Below, one piece after another: positions 3,386 to 22,505 of a stretch of DNA of 22,505 nucleotides; the first letter of the stretch is position 1, and each line of letters starts with the position of its first letter. Source of the DNA: Physocladia obscura (lineage: Eukaryota; Chytridiomycota; Chytridiomycetes; Chytridiales; Chytriomycetaceae). Made by a program: the position numbers and the translations under genes. The notes beneath the pieces are model-generated. The model worked only from the letters and a program-made list of their open reading frames with translations, had not been told where the DNA came from and searched no databases. The DNA lies in the NCBI GenBank assembly GCA_027596945.1, contig JADGJH010000283.1, positions 1 to 22,505 on the forward strand, read 5' to 3'.

Positions 3386-5467
3386 TTAAAAAAAAAAAAA
3401 AAAAAAAGCGAGAGAAAGAAACCTCAGGAATGTTCGCTCATTTGAAAAGTAAACTTTTCCAAATTTGTCAATTTTTACAGGAGCGTTTTTCCTGTTATTG
3501 CTTGCAACAACTGCTGCAGGAATAGAATTTTGCAAACTAGTATCTTCGTCATCAGAATCAACATCGTCTACACGTGTGGGATCCAAGTGTCGCGGCGGCC
3601 GGGCTTTTATAATCGACCTATCCATTTGATAAAACCAAAAAGGCACCTTATCAACTTTTTTGTAGTGAAAGTTTGCAATTGCATGATGGAATTTCGAAAA
3701 TTTCGGAACTTCTTCTACCTGTTTCATAATGTCAAAGAAAAAGTATATAATATATTTGTAATTTACCAAATGGGAATTCGCTAAATCGACAGCCCATTGT
3801 GGCGCCTCTTGTCCAGATTGTGTTTGTAGTTTAATCTCCAAGACTGCATAAGGAAAGTAAATTAAGTCATCTTTTGGCAATTCTTTGAATGGAAAACCAC
3901 TGTCATTTCTTCTCCAGTTTCCACTATTTCTACTGAATTCATCTTCACGAACAAGAGTAAGATCCGTGTCAAGAGAAATACGGACTCTTGCATCAGCAGG
4001 AAGTTGAAAAGCAGTTCGATTGTAGCTAGTACGAATCATCGGTTTAAGTTTTTTATCCAGTACCATTTGTTGTACTTCGTCGCCTAGTCGTTGCATATCC
4101 AGCAAATCTTTTTCTTTCTTTTTTCCTTTTGCGCGTAATTCTTGGACCGCCTCCTCTATTTTGTAGCGGCCAGCCAAGTAGTCATTCATATGTTTTTCTT
4201 TGATTGGGAAACGTTCTTTGATACTTTTTTGTGAGGTCCAGTCTTCATGGTGAGTCTTTCGCTCTACCCAAACTTCGTCTGTCTTTGTCCGGTCTCCATA
4301 CCATCTGAAGCGCAAATTCTGAGCACCTTCTTCACGCTTCATCCTTTCAGTGTACAGATCCAAATCGTCATTGTCAAAATAAATTGAATTTAGCGCGGGG
4401 TCGTTGGCGACACCCTTTTTGAAAAGAAGAACGGGCAAGTGCTTGAGAACCAAGACTTTGACGTCAACAATATTGTCAGGATGGACCCAATATTTCGTTG
4501 TTTTGCGCACAATGTTTTGCTGGTCAACACCGTCCGCTTTGTCCATTGAGGAGCTCAAACCATGAATGTAACGGACTCTATCCCACAGGTCTGAGAGGCG
4601 AATAATCAAAGTGTCGTAAGTTGATTCGTTAAAAGGCTTTGACGCCAAAAATGCGGCATATCTACTTGTGAGTTGATAGGCTGAACGATTCTTGTCATGT
4701 TTTTTTAGAATTTTTTTGACAGCCTGTTAAAATAGTAAATATTAAACCCAGAAATGAAAAGAAAAAACAATAATAAAGTTACCGTAAAATTGAGCCCGGA
4801 GAAGTACGCAAGATCTTTGACTTCTTGCGAGACGCGGCCAATTTCTTGGTCGAGACTTGACAGCCGGAATTTTTGCGCAACAGCATGACCCTCTTCAGAT
4901 TGGCCCGAAGTCTCTTCACTATTTTCAGAGAACGAATATTCGCTATTATGGCCATCATCATGCGGTACGAGCGGTTTAAGTGCTTCTTCGATGGAGGGCA
5001 CAGCTTTTTCCTGAAATAATTCATTTGGTTTATCAGACAAAAATCCAGCATTCGACCGCGGGTTTGGATTCAAATAGATTCAAACATAGCGCAATTAAAG
5101 CACGAACCATGGCTTCAATACGGCGCACAAGTTCGGCGTATTTTAGGGAAAAGAAAGCTTCGACTTTAAGCTTTTCGTCTTCAAGTGAGCGCTGAAACTC
5201 GCGGTGTTCGGGAAGCGCATATGGTTCAACACTAATACGAGTCTTGAGTTCTTTGTAGTCGAGCGAGTAAAAACGCCTTGTTTGTCGCATGAGTTGTTGT
5301 TGGTTTTTGTTTGTATCCTCACCAGTCGGCAAAGACTTCGTTTTCCTGAGTAAAGTATTTGTCACAGCGTAACAGTCCAGTGGTGATGATTGCTCAAACG
5401 ATCAGTTTAACAAGTATCTTGAGGGTGTTTTTGTGTGACTCACCAGTTTCTCGCCAAACTTGACCAT
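3386..5467 (-). CDS. VTC4: VTC4-like vacuolar polyphosphate polymerase, missing the C-terminal membrane domain
   Basis: Vtc4 makes polyphosphate from ATP at the vacuolar membrane. Six exons fit: 5467-5444, 5345-5323, 5276-5108, 5010-4783, 4723-3767 and 3718-3386, giving about 577 residues. The start MVKFGEKL is the classic SPX N-terminus; SPX (inositol-pyrophosphate sensor) fills residues 1 to about 165 and includes FYSLDYKELK and KILKKHDK. The polymerase tunnel domain follows (about 180-480) with TTKYWVHPDN, FRWYG, ERKTHHEDW, RTAFQLP, RVRISLDTDLTLVRED and FPYAVLEIKLQTQ, so the catalytic core looks intact. After SHLVEEVPKFSKF comes an acidic linker (DSDDED), then KVYFSNERTFLRFLSL, the beginning of the DUF202 membrane domain, which ends abruptly in poly-Phe. 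The three-helix anchor of yeast Vtc4 (721 residues) is absent. The donor at 5107 (GTTCGT) is the least certain junction. Confidence 0.88.
3388..3407. repeat. 20-A homopolymer at the meeting point of two truncated genes
   Basis: A run of 20 consecutive A lies between the last recognisable PPP4R4 exon (ending 3361, + strand) and the last recognisable VTC4 codons (down to about 3409, - strand). Both conserved genes lose their expected continuation here. The homopolymer gives the VTC4 frame a terminal poly-Phe and its stop at 3386-3388. Confidence 0.9.
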
Positions 5468-5807: not shown

Positions 5808-6175
5808 TTTTTGAAAAATATGAGCGTAAAACACGTATCAAAATAGCGTTGAAGCATTCATTTTTTTTTCAAATGTGCACCTTCAAATTGCGAATAATAA
5901 GCGACGAAAAAACCAAAACTAAGAGTCAATTTTCTTTTGAAATGGCCACGCACAAATTTTTTTGGCTAGATTATTTATATAAACGATCAAAACAATTTGA
6001 AAATATGAGTGTAACATCCAACGAAATGGCGCTGAATTCATTTTCTCTTTCTTTAATTAAGTTTTTCCATGTTTTGAACATTACCGAAAAGAAAAAAAAC
6101 CAAAGCGAAGGTTGGATTAATTTTCTGCTTGAAAAAATGGCCATGCACAAAAATTTTCAATACTATAAAAACCGT
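5808..6175 (+). repeat. Degenerate tandem duplication of about 185-195 bases upstream of the phosphoesterase
   Basis: Two diverged copies lie head to tail. TTTGAAAAATATGAGCGTAA (about 5810) matches TTTGAAAATATGAGTGTAA (about 5997). GCGTTGAAGCATTCATTT matches GCGCTGAATTCATTT. GAAATGGCCACGCACAAA (about 5939) matches AAAATGGCCATGCACAAA (about 6134), and TTATATAAACG matches CTATAAAAACCG. The order of the blocks is the same in both copies, with offsets of about 185 to 195 bases. The duplication ends just upstream of the phosphoesterase ATG and carries two TATA-like motifs. Confidence 0.7.
6164..6170 (+). promoter_or_regulatory. Likely TATA box for the phosphoesterase gene
   Basis: TATAAAA lies 55 bases before the ATG at 6219, in the downstream copy of the duplicated promoter region. 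The equivalent position in the upstream copy is TATATAAA at 5977. Confidence 0.4.
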
Positions 6176-6218
6176 GATCTCTCAAATCTCTCAGAGGAGT
6201 ATTTTAAAAAAAAAGGAC

Positions 6219-7631
6219 ATGCAGATCCGTCAGATAATACTTGCAGCTAGCGTTGTTGCAGCGGCACCGACAGGGCCAATCAAGAACTTTGTGGTACTAT
6301 GCTTGGAAAACCACTCGTTCGACGCGCTGCTGGGCTGGTGGGCAAAATCGCAGGCCGGAATAGACGGTATTCCCGACGGTGACACGGCCTGCAACACGCT
6401 GGCCAAGACCGGCCAGCAGTTCTGCGCCTCGAACGCTGCCCAATACGTGCAGGACTTCGACCCAGACCACCAGGTCGATGCGACCACACTGCAGATCTAC
6501 GGCGCTGCCAACGGCACAAATCCCCTTGCGCCCATCGGCCTGCCAAATATGTCTGGCTTTGTCGACCAGGCCGTGGTCTACGAAGACGAGCCACTGTCCG
6601 AAAACGGCGAGCCCCAAGTGTTCAACGACTCCTACGCCGCCCAGACTGTCATGAGTTCCTTTGATCCGTCCGCGCTTCCCGTCACCATCGCGCTTGCCGA
6701 AAACTTTCTTGTCTTCGACGCTTGGCATGCTGCTGTCCCAGGCCCCACATTCCCAAACAGAATCTCACTGGCCGCCGGAACTTCCAACGGTCTCTACTAT
6801 AACGAAGTTTCCACTTTGCTTGCTGGCATGCCACAGACATCTATTTTTCAAATGTTTGACAATGCCGGTTACTCCTACAAAAACTATTACAACCAAGTGC
6901 CAACTGGCGTCGTATTTACAGACTTCAGAGACCGTGTTATAAAAGATATTTTGGAACTTCAACCATCTGCCCACATTGGTTCCTTGAATTCTTTTTTTGC
7001 TGACGCCAAAGCTGGCAACCTTCCAGCTTTTTCATGGATTGACCCAATTTTGGTTTCTGTTCCTGGACAGCCTGCCAATGATAACCACCCGCCGCACGAT
7101 ATTGCACGAGGAGAACTTCTTGTCAAACAAGTCTACGAAGCTCTTCGTGCATCTCCTCAGTGGGAATCTACAGCTCTTCTCCTTACATACGACGAACACG
7201 GCGGGTTTTGGGATCATGCTGCGCCACCCACAAATGTTCCAATTCCCGACACTGCATCTGCTAACTGCCCAGACTTCCACTTTGATCGACTTGGTATTCG
7301 TGTACCCACTATTTTAATTTCACCTTATGTCAATGCTGGTGTCGTACACCAACCAACAGCAGCCGCACCTGCACAATTTGCAAGTTATTCGGCTTCACAG
7401 TACGAGCACGCGTCTCTTACACACACGTTGAACGATTTATTTGACTTGGGTGCATCATTGACGAACAGATCTGCCTGGGCCGGTTCTTTTGCAGGAGAGT
7501 TTTTGCACACTGCAAGAACCAACACTCCTGTCACACTTCCAGATGCTCCAACAATTACTCTTTCAGCAGAGATTGCTGATGTCGAGAACGAGTGGATGGA
7601 AATTGTTTCATTTATTCGAAGTATTTTGTGA
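6219..7631 (+). CDS. Secreted phosphoesterase of the phospholipase C / acid phosphatase family (PF04185-type)
   Basis: An intronless gene of 470 residues. The ATG at 6219 is chosen because it gives a hydrophobic signal peptide (MQIRQIILAASVVAAAP); the open frame extends 30 codons upstream but with no ATG and with promoter-like sequence. The family hydrolyses phosphate esters of phospholipids or small molecules. Motifs fit: FVVLCLENHSFDALLGWW near the mature N-terminus (metal site), PGPTFPNRISLAAGTS with the likely Thr nucleophile, the metal-binding TYDEHGGFWDHAAPP around residue 325, GIRVPTILISPYV, and a late YEHASLTHTLNDLF. It is probably extracellular and may scavenge phosphate, which would suit the neighbouring VTC4 gene, but the exact substrate cannot be told. 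Composition is uneven: the 5' third is markedly GC-rich and the 3' end AT-rich. Lack of introns next to intron-rich genes is compatible with bacterial origin. Confidence 0.82.
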   Translation: MQIRQIILAASVVAAAPTGPIKNFVVLCLENHSFDALLGWWAKSQAGIDGIPDGDTACNTLAKTGQQFCASNAAQYVQDFDPDHQVDATTLQIYGAANGTNPLAPIGLPNMSGFVDQAVVYEDEPLSENGEPQVFNDSYAAQTVMSSFDPSALPVTIALAENFLVFDAWHAAVPGPTFPNRISLAAGTSNGLYYNEVSTLLAGMPQTSIFQMFDNAGYSYKNYYNQVPTGVVFTDFRDRVIKDILELQPSAHIGSLNSFFADAKAGNLPAFSWIDPILVSVPGQPANDNHPPHDIARGELLVKQVYEALRASPQWESTALLLTYDEHGGFWDHAAPPTNVPIPDTASANCPDFHFDRLGIRVPTILISPYVNAGVVHQPTAAAPAQFASYSASQYEHASLTHTLNDLFDLGASLTNRSAWAGSFAGEFLHTARTNTPVTLPDAPTITLSAEIADVENEWMEIVSFIRSIL

Positions 7632-8239
7632 ATTGATACCGAAGAGTAGAAAAACTTCAATAAACATTGCTGGCTCAAAACAAATGAAACATGCGCAGAT
7701 TTTTTTGCCACGACCACCTACTAATGTGCAATAAACTCTATTAACATTGAATTCATCAGACTTCGGACATGCCAACACTGATTATTACGATTTGATTTTT
7801 TAGCTATGAAAAAAAACAAAAAAAAAAAATTTAATTCATTACTTCACAAAAATTTAATGTGTGGCTTAGGAAAAAGTTTTTGAAATGTTCAAGCAGTTGC
7901 ATTTATAATATTTTAGGCAGCAAATCATGGCGGTTTATTTGAAATAATTGTCAAAGTCTAATTTTCAAGAAATAGAAAAGTTTAATAGCCCTCATTTTAA
8001 TGCCAGGAATCAATGAAGACAAAAAATAAAATTTTTTTGTTTGACCCCTGATAGGTTTTCCAGGCTACTGCGAAACAGCTATCGCGATAGATTTCCTTCA
8101 ATCATTGATGCATTTTTTCAAAATACAAAACCATTTTTCTCTCATGAAAGATTAGTTTGTTGATTTAATTTCTTGATAACAGGAGTGGCACTGAAATTGA
8201 AAAGCCCAACTGGGAAAAAATGGCGAAAAACTTCTTGTT
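7632..8239. other. Intergenic region with polyadenylation-type signals
   Basis: AATAAA occurs at 7659-7664 and 7730-7735, suitable for 3' ends of the phosphoesterase transcript. The remainder is AT-rich with an A-run near 7820 and a 12-base perfect palindrome at 8079-8090 (CTATCGCGATAG). No gene is visible. Confidence 0.5.
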
Positions 8240-9313
8240 ATGATTATACCAAGTTTTCTTGTTTTTGCCACTTACGTTACTGTTGCTCCTCTCGACAAGA
8301 GAGCCGCTACTTGTGTGGTCTCTAGCTATGCTGGTTTTGCAAGTTGCGCTTCATCAACAAACATCCACATTCAAGGCCCTATCACCGTTCCCACAAATTC
8401 AGTAATCGACTGGTCTAGTCTGAAGTCCGGCACACAAGTTTTGCTCAGCGGAACAGTTACATTCACCAAAAGAATATTGACCGAGTCTGGTCCAAAACTT
8501 ATAACTGTAGGTGGCAGCGATATTACTTTTAAAGGTGACTCAAGTAATCCAGGAATTCTTGATGGACAAAGCTCTAGTTACTGGGACGGAAAAGGTAGCA
8601 ATAGAGGAGTCCCCAAACCAAAATTTTTCAGTCTTGAAACCACAGGGAAGTCTCGCTTTTTCAACTTCAAGATTTTGAACGCACCTGTTCAATCATTCAG
8701 TATTGGTGGCAGCGGTACGACCATTGACAACGTCAAAGTTGATAATAGTGCTGGGGACGCATTGGGTCACAACACCGACGGGTTCGATGTCAGTGCCGCC
8801 AGTATTATTATTCAAAACTCGTGGGTTTACAACCAAGACGACTGTCTCGCTGGCAACAGTGCAAATGACGTTCATTTTCTCAACAACATTTGCATCGGCG
8901 GTCATGGAATTTCTATTGGGTCAGTTGCAAGCGGCTCTGTTGTCGAGAACGTCACTGTCAAAAACTGCACGGTGCAGTCTTCAACATTTGGTGCGTGTAT
9001 CAAGACTGACTACGGTGCAACCTCCGGAAGCGTAAGCTCAATTATATACGAAGACATCACGCTTGTGGATATTTCGACGATGGGGATTGTGGTTCGACAA
9101 GATTATCAGAATGGAAGTCCAAAGGGAACAGCTGTGTCCAAGATGCCAATTACTGGTGTCACAATGTCCAATATTCATGGAACTATCACGTCAGGAGCCG
9201 ACAGCGTGTTTATTCTCTGTGCGACTGGGGAATGCACTGGATTTGATTGGTTTGAGATCAATATTGCCCCCAAGAAAACAAGCTGCTCGGGTGCAAGTCC
9301 AACCGGATGCTGA
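8240..9313 (+). CDS. Secreted endopolygalacturonase, GH28, with an altered RIK motif
   Basis: An intronless 357-residue protein, close to the usual length of fungal endopolygalacturonases (about 360), which cut homogalacturonan in pectin. A short hydrophobic leader (MIIPSFLVFATYVTVAP) is followed by LDKRA, a likely Kex2-type processing site. The right-handed beta-helix family motifs are present: HNTDGFDVS (about 178-186), NQDDCLAGNS (about 198-207) with both catalytic Asp, and GGHGISIGSV with the catalytic-region His. The fourth signature, normally RIK, reads CIK here: codon 253 (8996-8998) is TGT instead of an Arg codon. The Arg and Lys of this motif bind substrate in characterised enzymes, so activity may be reduced or altered. 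The C-terminus keeps the paired Cys pattern. AATAAA at 9365-9370 follows. Confidence 0.9.
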   Translation: MIIPSFLVFATYVTVAPLDKRAATCVVSSYAGFASCASSTNIHIQGPITVPTNSVIDWSSLKSGTQVLLSGTVTFTKRILTESGPKLITVGGSDITFKGDSSNPGILDGQSSSYWDGKGSNRGVPKPKFFSLETTGKSRFFNFKILNAPVQSFSIGGSGTTIDNVKVDNSAGDALGHNTDGFDVSAASIIIQNSWVYNQDDCLAGNSANDVHFLNNICIGGHGISIGSVASGSVVENVTVKNCTVQSSTFGACIKTDYGATSGSVSSIIYEDITLVDISTMGIVVRQDYQNGSPKGTAVSKMPITGVTMSNIHGTITSGADSVFILCATGECTGFDWFEINIAPKKTSCSGASPTGC

Positions 9314-12145: not shown

Positions 12146-15100
12146 TCATTTCTTTGCACCACACCCACAACGCTTGTCTTTTTCAGCAACAACCCGTTGG
12201 TATTCCAACTTCCGTCTAAAATTTATCATTATCCCACATGCAAGTGCAACCACACCAACGGCCATAAATACCCCAATTATGCTGATAATAACATCTCCTG
12301 CGACACTCAACCACACAATCTCAACAGCATATGGCGTTATATCGTACCAAAGTAGCTGTATGTCATGAGTTGCTGCCAAATTCACACCAAGAGCTTTGCT
12401 GATTTGAATATACGAGTGGATTGAAACGAGAGAAGAGTTGTACATGGATGGTGTTGGTGGATACACGTTTTGCTGCTCTAAGGCCCAGTTTGACTTTGGA
12501 TATTTTTCAAGGTCTAAGGAATGTGCTGTGTATAGAAGTCGTGCGAATTTCGGTATTTCTACCGAAATCGCTTGTATGGAGTGTGGCCAACCACTTTCTG
12601 GGTTGTACGTTGGCGGAAAAAGGTAGTTTATGCTTCCCGTGATTGATTGAGCGGGAAAACCAGTAGATCCAATGTAACTAAACGGTACAGATTTACCAAC
12701 AGAGATAATGTACTGGGATAGCAGCAGCAACGCACTAGATTATTTTGGACAAGTTTAAAAATAAAATAAAATAAACGAATCAGGTTACCTCAAATCAAAT
12801 AATTGATAGTGATACGCATGATGACGCAAAATCTCATAAGGCATGGATCCATTATCAGAAATCTGAGTATCAATTAAATAGTAAACACTGAAATTCGATG
12901 ATGCTGAGTCAAGGGAAGGCAGTTCCATAAGTGTCGTATTACCCAAGTATCCGCCGATACTCGCAAGGTGGATTGCGTGATATGTTAAATGGTTGTTTCT
13001 TAGGGTTTCACCTTCATAAATAATCAATATGTTAGCTTTATGCATGTCATAAAACGCGAGATGTCCCTTACTTGCGCTTGTTCCAATATCTGAGGTTGTT
13101 AACCAATCCATGTAATTCTCCATCCAAACACTCAATTGAATGTCATCATCTTCCGTCCATGCACTACTGTCTTGGATCAAAATTAGCGCATCAAAAACTT
13201 GATGCATTGAAAGCCCAAAATCCAAAAGTCCATTCGATTCTGAAAAGTTATCATTCCGATTCGTTCTGACTTGAGCGTAGTTCAGATTTGGATTTAGTGA
13301 ATATTTGGGATCAATGAACCATTGGCGGATGGCGCGCGCAGTTTCTGTCGCGTAAGCAAGTGTATTGAGGTAGAAGTATCCAAGAGATAAAATTTTCACA
13401 TTTTTTGTAAGGTTGCCAAATCTGTATCAAAAGTTTTTAAAACAAATAAATAAAAAGCAGAAAGAGGAAAAAAAATAAAAACAGGAAAAAAAAAGTTCTG
13501 GAGAACCAAACTTACAAGGCGTGATCTTGAATTGTATAAATATCTGGGTTAACCTCTGGATCTAAATCCACATATGGTAAATCGTTTGGCACTGGTTTTG
13601 AAGTGTCAGGAAAATAGTATCGAGCGAGAGAATAGTAATCTTTCGAGTCATTTGATGCAGGTAGTTTCGTTTTTAAAGTCACAGAGTATGTTGTTTCGTT
13701 GCTAGATTGGAGAGTTTTGTCACATTCTTTACGCAGCTTTGAGAGTGTGAAAACAACTTGCTTGTTGTATTGATTTGAATTAATATAGTTGCGATTGTTA
13801 ACCATCTGTTGATAATTTCCTTGAACCAGTGCATTCGAAGTGTAGAAAGACGTTTTTTGGAGAGTGGCAGCTTCGGAGACTGGGACGGCACAGAAACAAA
13901 GTAAAGAACAGACTAAAAGAGGAAGAATAGTGCTTTGGCTTCCTCTGAAAGTCGACGGTGTCGATCTTCCCCAAGTTGAACTTGTTGAAGAATTGGATGC
14001 CTCGCTTGTCGAAACACCAGGAACTGTAATTTCTTCCAACTCTGTCGGGCGCGATAAATCCATATAATTATCAGTAGTCGGTCTTCGCGATGGTATATTT
14101 TTGTCATCTGCTCCTGCACGTGTTCCCCAGTCCGTGACTCGCAGAGTGAAGAGACAGTATATTTTCATTATAGCAAAGTACCAGCTGAAAACAAGCCATA
14201 CTGGGATTGCAATTATATCTTGCGGCCTGCGAACAAAGTGTGGCAAATATTTAATTGCCCTCGAGAGTAGAAGCCACCCGACATACGTCCCAATAACAGT
14301 TTCAACTGAATAATTCGGACCAATATTAGCCGGATGAAACGCGTAGTAGAAAACAGTGACTGGGCCAACCAGCTGTTCAAATTGAGTTTGATTAGTCGTT
14401 CGTGAAAAATTAATTTCACATTACCAATGTAATTGGATTAAAAAACTTGTCAATCATTGTGTAAGCCGTGAAAGGGTTTCTGCGCCAAATCTGACGCTCA
14501 AAAAATATACTTTTAAGATCAGAACGCCATGAATTACGAGTCCATCGTAACAGCTGCAATAAAAACTTGTAATTATCCTTGAATGTCGATTTAATTTCCA
14601 CTTGGGGGCATGCTTGAATCCATGTATCCCAATAGTGTGAATGAAGCCAGCGAGTAAGGAACTTGTCGTCTCCGGAATGTTGATGATACTTCTTAACCCA
14701 AAACTCGTTTGCAAACTGATGTTGAAACTTTGAATCTTTCAGAATCTTTGAGCGATATGCAGCAGTACGACCACTAAGACAGCATACACCTCCATCAATG
14801 GCAGTAGTGGCGCAAATTTCAACGTTACGGATCTGTTTGACGAAAATTAAATAACAAAATATCGTACTATTCGATTTTTACCGAAATACGATACGCAGCG
14901 AGAATTTCCCAAATGGTGAATCGTTTTCCAAGCGGAATAGCAACTTGAGAAGTCCCTGGAGATTCAAGTCAGAGGTCAGAAAAACATTTCCTGTTTTCAC
15001 TTACCAACACCACCAACTCGAGGATTTTCGAATGGGGCTAAAATCCATGTCAGAAGAGTTGACGGCCAAAGCACATCATCATCGCAGAATACAATAATAT

Positions 15101-15575
15101 TAGTTTTTGTTTCGTTAATTCCTGCAATCATTTGCAAACGCTTGTTGGCTTTTGGGACAGTAATGACTCTGACAACTTGTGATTGCGGATCACATCGCCT
15201 TGCAATAAGTTCTAGAGGTTGCCTTGATGCTTCAACGGTTACAATAATTATTTTTGCGGGCTGACATGCAAGCCACTGTTGCGAAAAAATTAGTTGAACA
15301 GTTCTGAGAGAGTGAATTTTTTTTTTTTTGACGGAAATTCAATGGATTACCGTCATTAGAGCCATTTCAATCTCTTTTCCATGGTCAATTGTTGGCACAA
15401 TAATTGTTACGTCTTTTTCTGGAAAGAGCTCAGGATGACAGCGTGGCTTTATTGGTTTGTAGACAAACAGATAGATAGCGAGCTTGAAAAGATACCAGAA
15501 CCAGCGGTAAATGCCAACGAATCCGATTTCAAGGGGTATTCCAGCAGCAAAGTTCAGATTCTTGAGATAAAGCAT
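12146..15575 (-). CDS. Fusion protein: GT2 (Cps1/hyaluronan-synthase-like) polysaccharide synthase plus alginate-lyase-like domain
   Basis: Seven exons fit with consistent phases: 15575-15351, 15275-15005, 14955-14882, 14832-14425, 14372-13516, 13421-12789 and 12734-12146, giving 1018 residues. After an N-terminal membrane helix (about 23-42), the GT2 core starts at VTIIVPT (about 57) and keeps CDDDVLWP (Asp 140-142), SGDDKFLTRW (244-247) and QLLRW (283-287), the processive-synthase signatures. Two or three membrane helices follow (about 327-401). After a Ser/Thr-rich linker comes a further helix (ILPLLVCSLLCFCAV, 475-489). Residues about 496-935 match the PF05426 alginate-lyase pattern: DYYSLARYYFPDTSKP, NPDIYTIQD, FIDPKYSLNPNLNYAQ (647-662), WTEDDD, and EILRHHAYHYQLFDL (about 808-822). 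A last helix (about 963-992) is followed by FRRK. The charges place the lyase outside and the tail in the cytosol. Exon 5 alone covers the synthase end, linker, anchor and lyase start. The polymer made is unknown; uronic-acid content is inferred. Confidence 0.85.
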
Positions 15576-15896: not shown

Positions 15897-17238
15897 ATGG
15901 TTCTTCAGAGGTTCTGCGGCATCACTATTGCTCTGTATTACCGGCTTCTGACTCGAACGAGTCTTTCAACCAAACAGCAAATCATTCTCGTTGGTACAAC
16001 TCATCTGCTATTGACAGCATTATTTCCCTGCGCAAATCCACACTTTAACATATTCACAAAAGTGAGTGTTTCCGGCTTTTTGCTCCTTTAGAATTATCGA
16101 CTTTGCCCAGGTAAACATCCAAAATCTGACTTTTTTACTTGTCGCCTCCAGATACACCTCCATCAAGCAGTTGTTGAATGTGTTAGTCCTTTTTATCAAT
16201 CACTTTTTAACAGAATCAAAACACGGTTCTGGTCTTTCTTTGAGTATATCGAGTTTTTTATTATAGAAACAGCGTTCATCAAAGTACGATGCATGGAAGC
16301 TCACTGGGGTTAATCGAATACATCCACAAACCCGCACTATGCTACTCTATTTCAATTTATTCGTTCGCCAGTCCTGTATTTTAGTCGTCTATAGTTTTAC
16401 GGTTGCATTCTTCAGGACACGAGAATTTGCACCGCGTTTTGGAATTTTGTCACCCTTTGATTTTCCTGCAGTGATCGATTATACAATACTTGGTGTTATG
16501 GGATTTTGCATAATGGAGCTTGGTGAAGTAATTTTTATCCTTGTAAAAGCATTCTTATTATTCATACTATTTTCCCAACTTGTAAAAACAGGTCACGCTG
16601 TACCTGCTGTGTTATTAGCTTGGTTATTCAACGCACCAATTGTTCCTTTGTTTAATAATTCTTTTTTGGCTTTATCTTTGCAAGAATTTGGAAGTTTACA
16701 TCTACTGTAAAAACTTGACTTATTTATTTTTTTGTTAGTGGGTGCGTCGATGGAATCTGCCAATTAAGTCATACCTTCATCATAATATTTTCTTGCCAAC
16801 CTTGCGTCTGCTAACTCATTCCGAAACTACTGGAAAATTTTATCAAAAATTGCCAAATATAATTGCCTGTATGGCATCTTTTACGTTTTCTGGAATTGTT
16901 CATGAATATTTTGCATGGCTTTTTTGTTTTGGTCAACAGAAATTTGGAGAAAATTTAACGTTTTTCATATTACAAGGGGTTTTTTGCGTTGTTGAACATA
17001 GGATAATGAAAGCCAGCGGGTTTGGCAGGACTTGGGGGTGATCTTTGTGGTGGAAAATTATTCGTTGGATTTGTAAGACCGACCTTTCTCATTTCTTTGT
17101 CTTGCTTTTCCAACGTTTATGATTCTTATATTAACGAACCCCCTGATTGTTGGACCTTATGTTCGACATTTCGAAGTTAATGAACTTCCAGCGCCAGCAA
17201 TATTCCTCTCATTTTTCAATAAAATCATCACTGTTTGA
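15897..17238 (+). pseudogene. Wax-synthase-like MBOAT O-acyltransferase, apparently decayed
   Basis: This family esterifies fatty alcohols or related acceptors with acyl-CoA in the ER membrane. Exons 15897-16061, 16152-16181, 16267-16689 and 16739 onward read in one phase. Residues include KYDAWKLTGVNRIHPQTR, FGILSPFDFPAVIDYTILG, several hydrophobic helices, then SLQEF joined to W-RRWNLPIKSYLHHNIFLP and SGIVHEYFAW. These match the SLREFWGRRWN and SGxxHE signatures of fungal MBOAT_2 / wax synthases, including the conserved His. Damage is visible. The intron at 16690-16738 begins GGAAGT where GTAAGT is expected. The last frame stops at TGA 17039-17041 before the family's C-terminus. The remaining tail (GPYVRHFEVNELPAPAIF, ending 17238) lies in another frame. 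Sequencing errors could explain one lesion but hardly all three. Confidence 0.65.
16690..16695 (+). other. Broken 5' splice site (GGAAGT for GTAAGT)
   Basis: The two flanking exons join in frame exactly across the conserved SLQEF-W-RRWNLP motif if the intron is 16690-16738. The acceptor (TTTTTTTGTTAG) is good, but donor position +2 is G instead of T. No alternative GT nearby keeps the frame. Confidence 0.6.
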
Positions 17239-18928: not shown

Positions 18929-20648
<1,720 letters not shown>

Positions 20649-21000: not shown

Positions 21001-22505
21001 TCAAGGGAAAAACAACTCTCCATCCGCGCCACCAGCACTACCGCCACCACCACTATCACCGAAACCACCGACATTACCACAAACAGAATTTTCATTATAA
21101 TTCATCTCTTCAGGGATTTCAAAGTCAGCCTCCTCAGGCTTGAACGGAGCCTCAACTTCACCACTTGCAAGTCTGGCAAAATCAATCTTGCTGAAAAATG
21201 TGTGCCGCATAATCTCTTCCCCACCATTCACTCCCAATCGCCCACTTGCTTCTCTAACTAAAAGTCCCATCAAAATTGACTTGGCATTAGCACTCAAATA
21301 TTTAGGATACTTTACCATCCCCGTACTTGTCCCAATCCCAGGCACAGTAGTCCCACCAGTTGAAATGTTCTCCTCCATTTGCGTTCGACTTTCATCATAG
21401 AACGGATGACTTCCACACAACATTTCGTACAACACCACACCAAAAGCCCACCAATCACTTGCATATGAAGTTCCTTGTCCATGAATAACCTCTGGTGCAA
21501 GGTATTCTAACGACCCCACAACCTGCCCAGCATCTGTTGTTTGTTCCATTCGACTTGAACCAAACTCGCTAAACACAACATGCCCCTCACGACTCAAAGA
21601 AATATTTTCAAGTTTCAAATCCCTGTACACAATCCTTTGGGTGTGTAGATATTCAAGACATAGGACAATCTCGGCTCCATAGAATCGTGCACGTTCTTCG
21701 GTGAATTTACCGAAATTTTGGAGTTGAGAGTATAATTCCTGGCCGCCATCAAAATATTCAAAGATCATGTAGACCGTGCCTTTTTGATTTACTGTTTCGA
21801 ATACTGCGTGTAGCTTAGATACGAATGCTTGGCGAATGCTTTGTAGGATTTTGAATTCCGTATTTTCTCGGCCTCCCCCGTTTTTCAGCATTTTTTTGCC
21901 GCTAACTACTTTTACTGTGTACATTGCTGCTGACAATAGTTCTTTAGAATTTTTTTGTTTGCAAATAAATATCTGAATAGTTAATATGTTTTGATCAGTG
22001 GGAGCAGTATACAGGAATAGAAAGTAAAAACTTAACCTGTTTGTCTGAATCTTCAAGGATACGCGAAACGTGAAACGGTGAAACTTCTCCATTATTGATG
22101 GACTCCGTGGCTCCAATTACGCCATCACTTGCAACTGGCTGAAATGATTTTGTAAATTCCTTTATCCGTTCGACCCATTCCTCCATTTCACTGAAGTTCT
22201 TGGCAGCAAGAATGTAACTTGTCAAACCACTACTACCGCCAATATCTGCAACAACAAATGCATTCCTAATGTTTCCAACATCAAGCAATGACCGACTAGT
22301 GCGATACTGCACTGTTGCTTGTGTGATGGGAATTATGTACGTGGTGGCATCGAGAGAACTGAGTAGAAATTTGAGCTCTGTGGAATTAATTGTCACCCAT
22401 ACGTCAACCCATTCTTCATATTCGTCACGAATCATGAGCCAGCCTTCTTTCGGGGATATTTGGCGAGTGAGTTTCTGGGAAGGGTGGCGGCAGTATGTGT
22501 TAATG
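21001..22505 (-). CDS. PH-domain AGC-family (Akt-like) probable pseudokinase, 5' end outside the window
   Basis: Two exons are visible, from the window edge to 22037 and 21972-21001, joined by a 64-base intron. The first encodes a PH domain (KEGWLM, EYEEWVDVWVTI, closing Trp helix EMEEWVERIKEF), which binds phosphoinositides in Akt-type kinases. A kinase domain of AGC type follows: YTVKVV (the ATP-site Lys), VYRDLKLENISL, SLEYLAPEV, SDWWAFGVVLYEMLCGSHPF, and GRLG followed by MRHTFFSKIDF. Three key elements are altered. The position of the glycine-rich loop reads RILEDSDKQ with no Gly. The DFG motif is EFG (codon GAG at 21565-21567). The TFCGTPEY activation segment is QVVGSLEY, lacking the PDK1-site Thr. 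The C-terminus is Gly-rich and has no FxxF(S/T)Y hydrophobic motif. A scaffolding or regulatory role at membranes is inferred. Confidence 0.82.

Follow-up and report, generated by a model that had tools for sequence, protein, structure and literature searches.

A putative membrane polysaccharide synthase with its own PL38-like lyase domain in the chytrid Physocladia obscura

In the chytrid Physocladia obscura (Chytridiomycota, Chytridiales), one gene appears to join a membrane glycosyltransferase of family 2 (GT2) to a lyase of the alginate-lyase superfamily. The gene lies on the minus strand of the 22,505-nucleotide stretch analyzed here (the window; contig C281 of a genome set with 1222 contigs and 21.76 Mb), where one long open frame runs from an ATG at 15575 to a stop at 12146. 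The two halves meet inside a single exon, 14372-13516, which continues uninterrupted from the GT2 C-terminus into the lyase. The annotated NCBI protein, HK100_006095 (hereafter P0001), matches both the GT2 profile PF13641 (1.8e-26) and the alginate-lyase profile PF05426 (1.6e-42; 146 bits, cut-off 22.2), and the same fusion is present in a paralogue. These observations bear out the original prediction of a GT2-lyase chain with these same limits, in which a Pfam scan was expected to find both domains. In our view there is an even chance that the protein makes a polysaccharide at the membrane and carries a tethered lyase of its own, which would cut a uronate polymer made by the same protein.

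The corrected gene model comprises eight exons, all on the minus strand, and encodes 998 amino acids (1018 if a 60-nt in-frame intron is kept). GT2 occupies residues 1-411 and is followed by a Ser/Thr linker (412-477), a signal-like helix (478-497), the lyase (~504-935), a C-terminal helix and a basic tail. Exon 1 (15351..15575) starts with the ATG at 15575 and encodes the single N-terminal membrane helix of the GT2, placed by the structure model at residues 15-38 (15533-15462). The GT2 core spans exon 2 (15005..15275), which holds the DDD motif (residues 140-142; 15083-15075), and exon 3 (14882..14955), while exon 4 (14425..14832) carries SGDDK (14676-14662) and QLLRW (14556-14542). Exon 5, the fusion exon (13516..14372), encodes the GT2 C-terminal membrane helices, the WGTR motif (14129-14118), the linker (14117-13920), a signal-peptide-like or membrane helix recognized by hydropathy (13860..13919) and the start of the lyase, with Y578 (13619-13617) and D597 (13562-13560). 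The lyase continues through exon 6 (13072..13421), with Q662 at 13273-13271, and exon 7 (12789..13011), which contains the active-site residues N734, N735 and H736 (12997-12989), R791 (12826-12824), and H796 and Y797 (12811-12806). Exon 8 (12146..12734) encodes the lyase end, the C-terminal helix (~936-971; 12337-12230), the basic tail and the stop.

The fusion sequence is already deposited in NCBI and UniRef as a hypothetical or 'Alginate lyase domain-containing' protein, and HK100_006095 seems to be misannotated twice. The 60 nt at 14286-14227, which encode a GT2 membrane helix and are present in two further copies of the gene (copy B and P0002, below), were removed from it, and the 60 nt at 13071-13012 were retained and translated; its C-terminal tail also differs from the corrected model. 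Both structure models were built on P0001, not on the corrected 998-residue protein. Model 1 has a well-folded GT2 and an unfolded lyase, which probably reflects a poor alignment, and model 2, whose alignment consisted mainly of lyase relatives, has a folded lyase and a poor GT2; the two parts are modelled well in separate models only, never together. The stretch 13071-13012 (GTAAGG..GAAG) has GT..AG ends and sits where copies B and C of the gene have introns, and once it is taken out, the protein aligns without gaps to B and C just before the active-site NNH. The lowest lyase confidence of model 2 also falls around these 60 nt (blocks 711-730, mean pLDDT 35 and 40). Because paralogue introns, gapless alignment and low model confidence coincide, we read it as an intron, and the 1018-residue product predicted at first stands as an open frame and shortens to 998 residues as a protein. 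The fusion gene would be spliced into a single transcript.

The synthase half has the predicted fold, the motifs and the C-terminal membrane helices of class I hyaluronan synthases, that is, of the Cps1 type. PF13641 matches single exons (2.5e-8 and 2.8e-9), the DDD, SGDDK, QLLRW and WGTR motifs are all present, and the best match of the predicted fold in the PDB is Xenopus hyaluronan synthase 1 (1.3e-14, target TM-score 0.50), followed by cellulose synthase and Chlorella virus hyaluronan synthase. At the level of sequence, a PDB search gave 0 matches at 1e-3, and NCBIfam matches of three fusions all fell far below their cut-offs (e.g., NodC, 29 bits against 550). A search with the whole fusion, in which a capped number of candidates (7996) was scored, listed 103 relatives; the nearest GT2s among them are chytrid (up to 64% identity), then from the Mortierella group and basidiomycetes. 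We therefore assign the GT2, from its motifs and predicted fold, to the putative Cps1/hyaluronan-synthase type, as had been predicted, with a glycan product that is likewise putative. In PMC12892975, Cryptococcus CPS1 is called a hyaluronic acid synthase, and PMC5653360 reports ZtGT2 orthologues in chytrids and describes the ZtGT2 polysaccharide as unidentified.

The lyase half is PL38-like by sequence, predicted fold and active-site positions. Membership was judged by Pfam, by the BoPL38 sequence, by fold and by active site. PF05426 matches 13426-12785 at 7.9e-31, and its first 47 positions match the end of exon 14372-13516 (0.0017, 18.3 bits, which alone is below the 22.2 cut-off). The BoPL38 sequence is matched at 2.4e-32 over query residues 50-400, identity to PL38 members amounts to 24-26% over the barrel, and the predicted structure is a complete (alpha/alpha) barrel that comes closest to PL38 structures. 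All eight BoPL38 active-site positions, including the catalytic Tyr298 and His243, are identical in the window copy and in copy B. With these catalytic residues kept and a C-terminal helix behind them, the membrane-tethered alginate-lyase-superfamily domain of the original prediction is recovered. An AlgL/PL5 identity was rejected, PL38 being closer in both sequence and fold. According to the accessible part of PMC13027841, PL38 members cut glucuronan and hyaluronan besides alginate, and the five characterized ones (BoPL38, Aly38A, CUL-I, TpPL38A and RiPL38) come from bacteria and Trichoderma.

The gene is probably present in three copies in Physocladia obscura, of which the window copy is A. 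Copy B, on contig C440, encodes the same fusion with all its introns, eight of eight exons having equal phase and six of eight equal length. Copy C is known from two pieces: P0002, on a 5,560-base NCBI contig, runs from GT2 through the linker into the lyase, and P0104, at the end of contig C363, supplies the remaining lyase; we infer that they are one gene. A search of the genome set with the fusion exon returned two loci, C281 and C440, and the four PF05426 matches of the set all lie in C281, C440 and C363. Between A and B, amino acid identity is 84.7% for GT2, 76.4% for the lyase and 25.5% for the linker. The corresponding dN/dS ratios are 0.034, 0.037 and 0.37, with weaker constraint also outside the enzyme domains (0.20 for the stretch 501-545 and 0.29 for the C-terminal part), all of which are rough because dS, at 2.3-3.9, is near saturation. 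Strong purifying selection acts on GT2 and lyase alike.

The copies also bear on whether two adjacent genes were merged here through a missing stop or an assembly error. Copy A does have one in-frame Met in the linker (residue 430), and nearly all listed relatives are flagged with GT2 and no lyase, as such a merger would lead one to expect. However, the same join occurs on different contigs, in C440 and in P0002, and the linker is open in all three copies, with gaps of whole codons. Copies B and C have no Met between residues 395 and 509, so that the lyase with its signal-like helix cannot start at a nearby ATG there. On this paralogue evidence the two-gene artefact was rejected, and we regard it as extremely improbable.

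Among the 103 listed relatives, four are flagged with both domains: P0001, P0088 from Nowakowskiella sp. JEL0078, a chytrid of another order, P0097 from the bdelloid rotifer Rotaria sp. Silwood2 (seven member sequences), and P0103, an unnamed ENA protein that is truncated at both ends and looks eukaryotic. In P0088, P0097 and P0103 the order is reversed, lyase then GT2, with the join directly before the GT2 N-terminal helix; P0088 and P0097 start with a signal-like helix. Rotaria keeps seven of the eight active-site residues (Q to H), and Blyttiomyces P0105, a stand-alone chytrid lyase, keeps six. In a GT2 tree of 33 chosen rows rather than all 103 relatives, the three copies from Physocladia group together at 100/100 and meet other chytrids in an unresolved fork. 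Rotaria clusters with P0103 and P0100 (100/100) within a 90/95 group without Physocladia, and Nowakowskiella is a long branch. In the lyase tree, which leaves out the too-short P0103 and whose bootstrap is not settled, Physocladia groups with the stand-alone lyases of Blyttiomyces (81/98), and the long branches of Rotaria and Nowakowskiella are placed with little certainty. Given the opposite domain orders and the GT2 tree, the pairing probably arose at least twice. The Physocladia fusion probably came about when a GT2 gene was joined to a complete secreted lyase gene, signal peptide included. A search with the Rotaria lyase recovered only itself among 4983 candidates.

Two other sources of the pairing were rejected. 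For an origin in a bacterial operon, 0 of 2265 open frames of at least 120 aa around 79 bacterial PL38-like loci (from the best 80 of 560 confirmed matches, many with flanks shorter than 8 kb) match the GT2 profile even at E<=10, and the profile does recover known relatives. As to viruses, viral contigs scanned once with alignment A1 yielded eight pattern matches and no relative.

Hydropathy marks two strong helices around the lyase, at ~478-497 and ~936-971. The C-terminal one is followed by five to six K/R and preceded by none. By the positive-inside rule, the basic flank of a membrane helix stays inside, which would place the tail inside and the lyase outside. Copy B shares every one of the eight glycosylation sequons in the lyase of copy A, and four bacterial or environmental lyase relatives have 0-3 sequons. 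The lyase likely sits on the outer face of the membrane. Helix 478-497 resembles a retained signal peptide, and a cut by signal peptidase may split the chain there. It may then be that the fusion is only a precursor: the helix would be an old signal peptide, signal peptidase would yield a free synthase and a C-terminally anchored lyase, and the join would merely secure their equal, co-located production. The helix is shaped like a signal peptide, small residues occupy the expected cleavage position (VSEA-A in A; VSA-A in B and P0002), and the start of the lyase barrel lies a few residues further on, P0001 residue 484-485 (~504 in the corrected protein) aligning to residues 21-24 of PL38 and 3nnb/3nfv structures. 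The chytrid proteins P0105 and P0106, which group with the Physocladia lyase in the tree, are moreover stand-alone lyases that start with a signal-like helix and end in a hydrophobic C-terminus. Against such a precursor, the helix is not producible from a nearby ATG in copies B and C, given the Met-free stretch described above. Between the domains of the Rotaria and Nowakowskiella fusions, the GT2 N-terminal helix is the one clearly hydrophobic stretch, so that a second signal peptide is neither required nor visible there; P0103 has one more, weak window at 173-191. We consider processing into two proteins a real possibility, albeit one that we would not expect to prove correct.

If the chain instead stays whole, as in the tethered-lyase reading, GT2 (residues 1-411) would polymerize the glycan at the cytosolic side and extrude it. 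The chain would then cross the membrane at ~478-497 and display the PL38-like barrel outside, near the glycan exit, with the C-terminal helix as an anchor for the lyase. The lyase would most likely work by beta-elimination (Tyr797, His736) on a uronate-containing polymer from the same protein. Such cutting would trim the glycan and so determine its size, free completed chains from the synthase, or remove those that have stalled. Outer-face position, lyase activity and action on the protein's own product are what we infer here, and both domain orders would place the lyase outside, at the glycan exit.

Several observations weigh against this reading. A 2023 review (PMC10939387) goes no further than 'quite likely' in calling even Cryptococcus CPS1 a hyaluronan synthase. 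No UDP-glucose or GDP-mannose dehydrogenase was found, with 0 matches to PF03721, PF00984 and TIGR03026 in contigs of at least 10 kb. The control PF01704 was found in the same genome set, and a MIOX search was uninformative, with zero matches in any sequence searched. Absences in this set are weak, because smaller contigs seem to lie outside it: its last contig, C1222, has 10,004 bases, and the 5,560-base contig bearing P0002 is not found in it. With only four of the 103 listed relatives flagged for both domains, the GT2 family does not generally need a lyase. The charge bias at helix 478-497 is weak (K/R before/after 1/1 in A, 1/0 in B, 2/0 in P0002), and the sequon excess of the Physocladia lyase over shuffled sequences is not significant (fractions 0.22 in A, 0.11 in B and 0.10 in part of C). 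The Nowakowskiella lyase keeps seven of eight active-site residues including the Tyr, yet its catalytic His is replaced by Thr (P0088 residue 222), which suggests an activity altered or lost. Finally, none of 79 bacterial PL38-like loci (from the best 80 of 560 confirmed matches) has such a GT2 in the sequence within up to 8 kb per side, many flanks being shorter.

This last absence fits a different role, in which the lyase would break down external uronate polymers of algae, plants or bacteria, either to feed or to penetrate, and its link to GT2 would be incidental. BoPL38 seems to enable growth of Bacteroides ovatus CP926 on alginate, as far as the accessible text of PMC11381880 goes. A GH28 gene lies within the window (8201-9313). 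Three environmental lyase relatives, P0108, P0110 and P0111, are joined to PF07470, which we take to be of the glycoside hydrolase 88/105 type, and such joins would fit stepwise uronate breakdown. A feeding enzyme would normally be secreted, however, and all PF05426 matches in the genome set are fusion loci or the part-copy on C363; the pairing also recurs, reversed, in a rotifer and in a chytrid of a different order. A feeding role is in our view improbable.

The neighborhood of the gene was scanned as 10 open frames, with hits among 3386-4726(-), 6078-7631(+), 8201-9313(+), 16739-17041(+), 18929-19549(-) and 21001-22116(-). Five of the 10 frames are above a family cut-off (VTC domain, phosphoesterase, GH28, subtilase and protein kinase), MBOAT_2 is just below, and no further glycosyltransferase was found among them. 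Other GT2 joins also occur among the relatives. P0101 and P0102, GT2s of bacterial or environmental origin from the same broad family, have a C-terminal parallel beta-helix (PF05048/PF13229), in P0102 together with LysM; here too a synthase is joined to a domain that may act on glycans. P0090 and P0092, of which one belongs to the diatom Asterionellopsis glacialis, finish with a hydrophobic segment and a BNR_4 match that is weak (~5e-4) and does not reach the Pfam cut-off; they may represent a third type of synthase with an outer domain. P0015 (GT2 with APP1 phosphatase, Rhizophlyctis) and P0098 (GT2 with ABC transporter, Coccidioides) may be gene-calling joins.

Taken across species, the tethered-lyase reading extends to a class of self-trimming synthases: eukaryotic GT2s of hyaluronan-synthase type that bear a uronate lyase on the outer face, which would set chain length or release. 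The two domains would have come together at least twice and in both orders, as GT2-lyase in Physocladia and as lyase-GT2 in Rotaria, Nowakowskiella and P0103. We advance this tentatively, as plausible but falling somewhat short of an even chance. The fusions place a putative uronate-lyase domain on synthases from a bdelloid rotifer and from two chytrids. Among the papers listed by a literature search, with most subscription journals outside its reach, no description of a synthase-lyase fusion of such architecture was found. The same 2023 review (PMC10939387) calls the control of chain length by class I hyaluronan synthases still unsolved. A natural synthase with a tethered lyase would allow a direct test of this control by a two-residue lyase mutation with chain size as the readout, and offers a natural design for enzymes making polymers of set length.

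With fungal Cps1/ZtGT2-type GT2s and class I hyaluronan synthases, the Physocladia protein shares the predicted fold and the DDD, SGDDK, QxxRW and WGTR motifs; unlike them, it adds a lyase, none of them being described with one in the texts available in part. With BoPL38, Aly38A, CUL-I, TpPL38A and RiPL38 it shares the fold, the barrel identity and the active-site residues, whereas its lyase is membrane-anchored behind a synthase, an arrangement that the accessible part of PMC13027841 does not describe for those enzymes. Bacterial alginate synthase and AlgL (PL5) offer the idea of a lyase that works where a synthase exports its polymer; in Pseudomonas, AlgL clears periplasmic alginate (PMC8829089). 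The original prediction saw in the Physocladia protein a one-chain counterpart of this pair; a lyase beside a synthase stands, but the lyase is PL38-like, not PL5, so that the likeness is one of analogy only. Cyclic beta-1,2-glucan synthase, which has a built-in phosphorylase domain, provides a further parallel: one chain makes the polymer and a second catalytic domain sets its length, as proposed here with different families, a different polymer and different chemistry.
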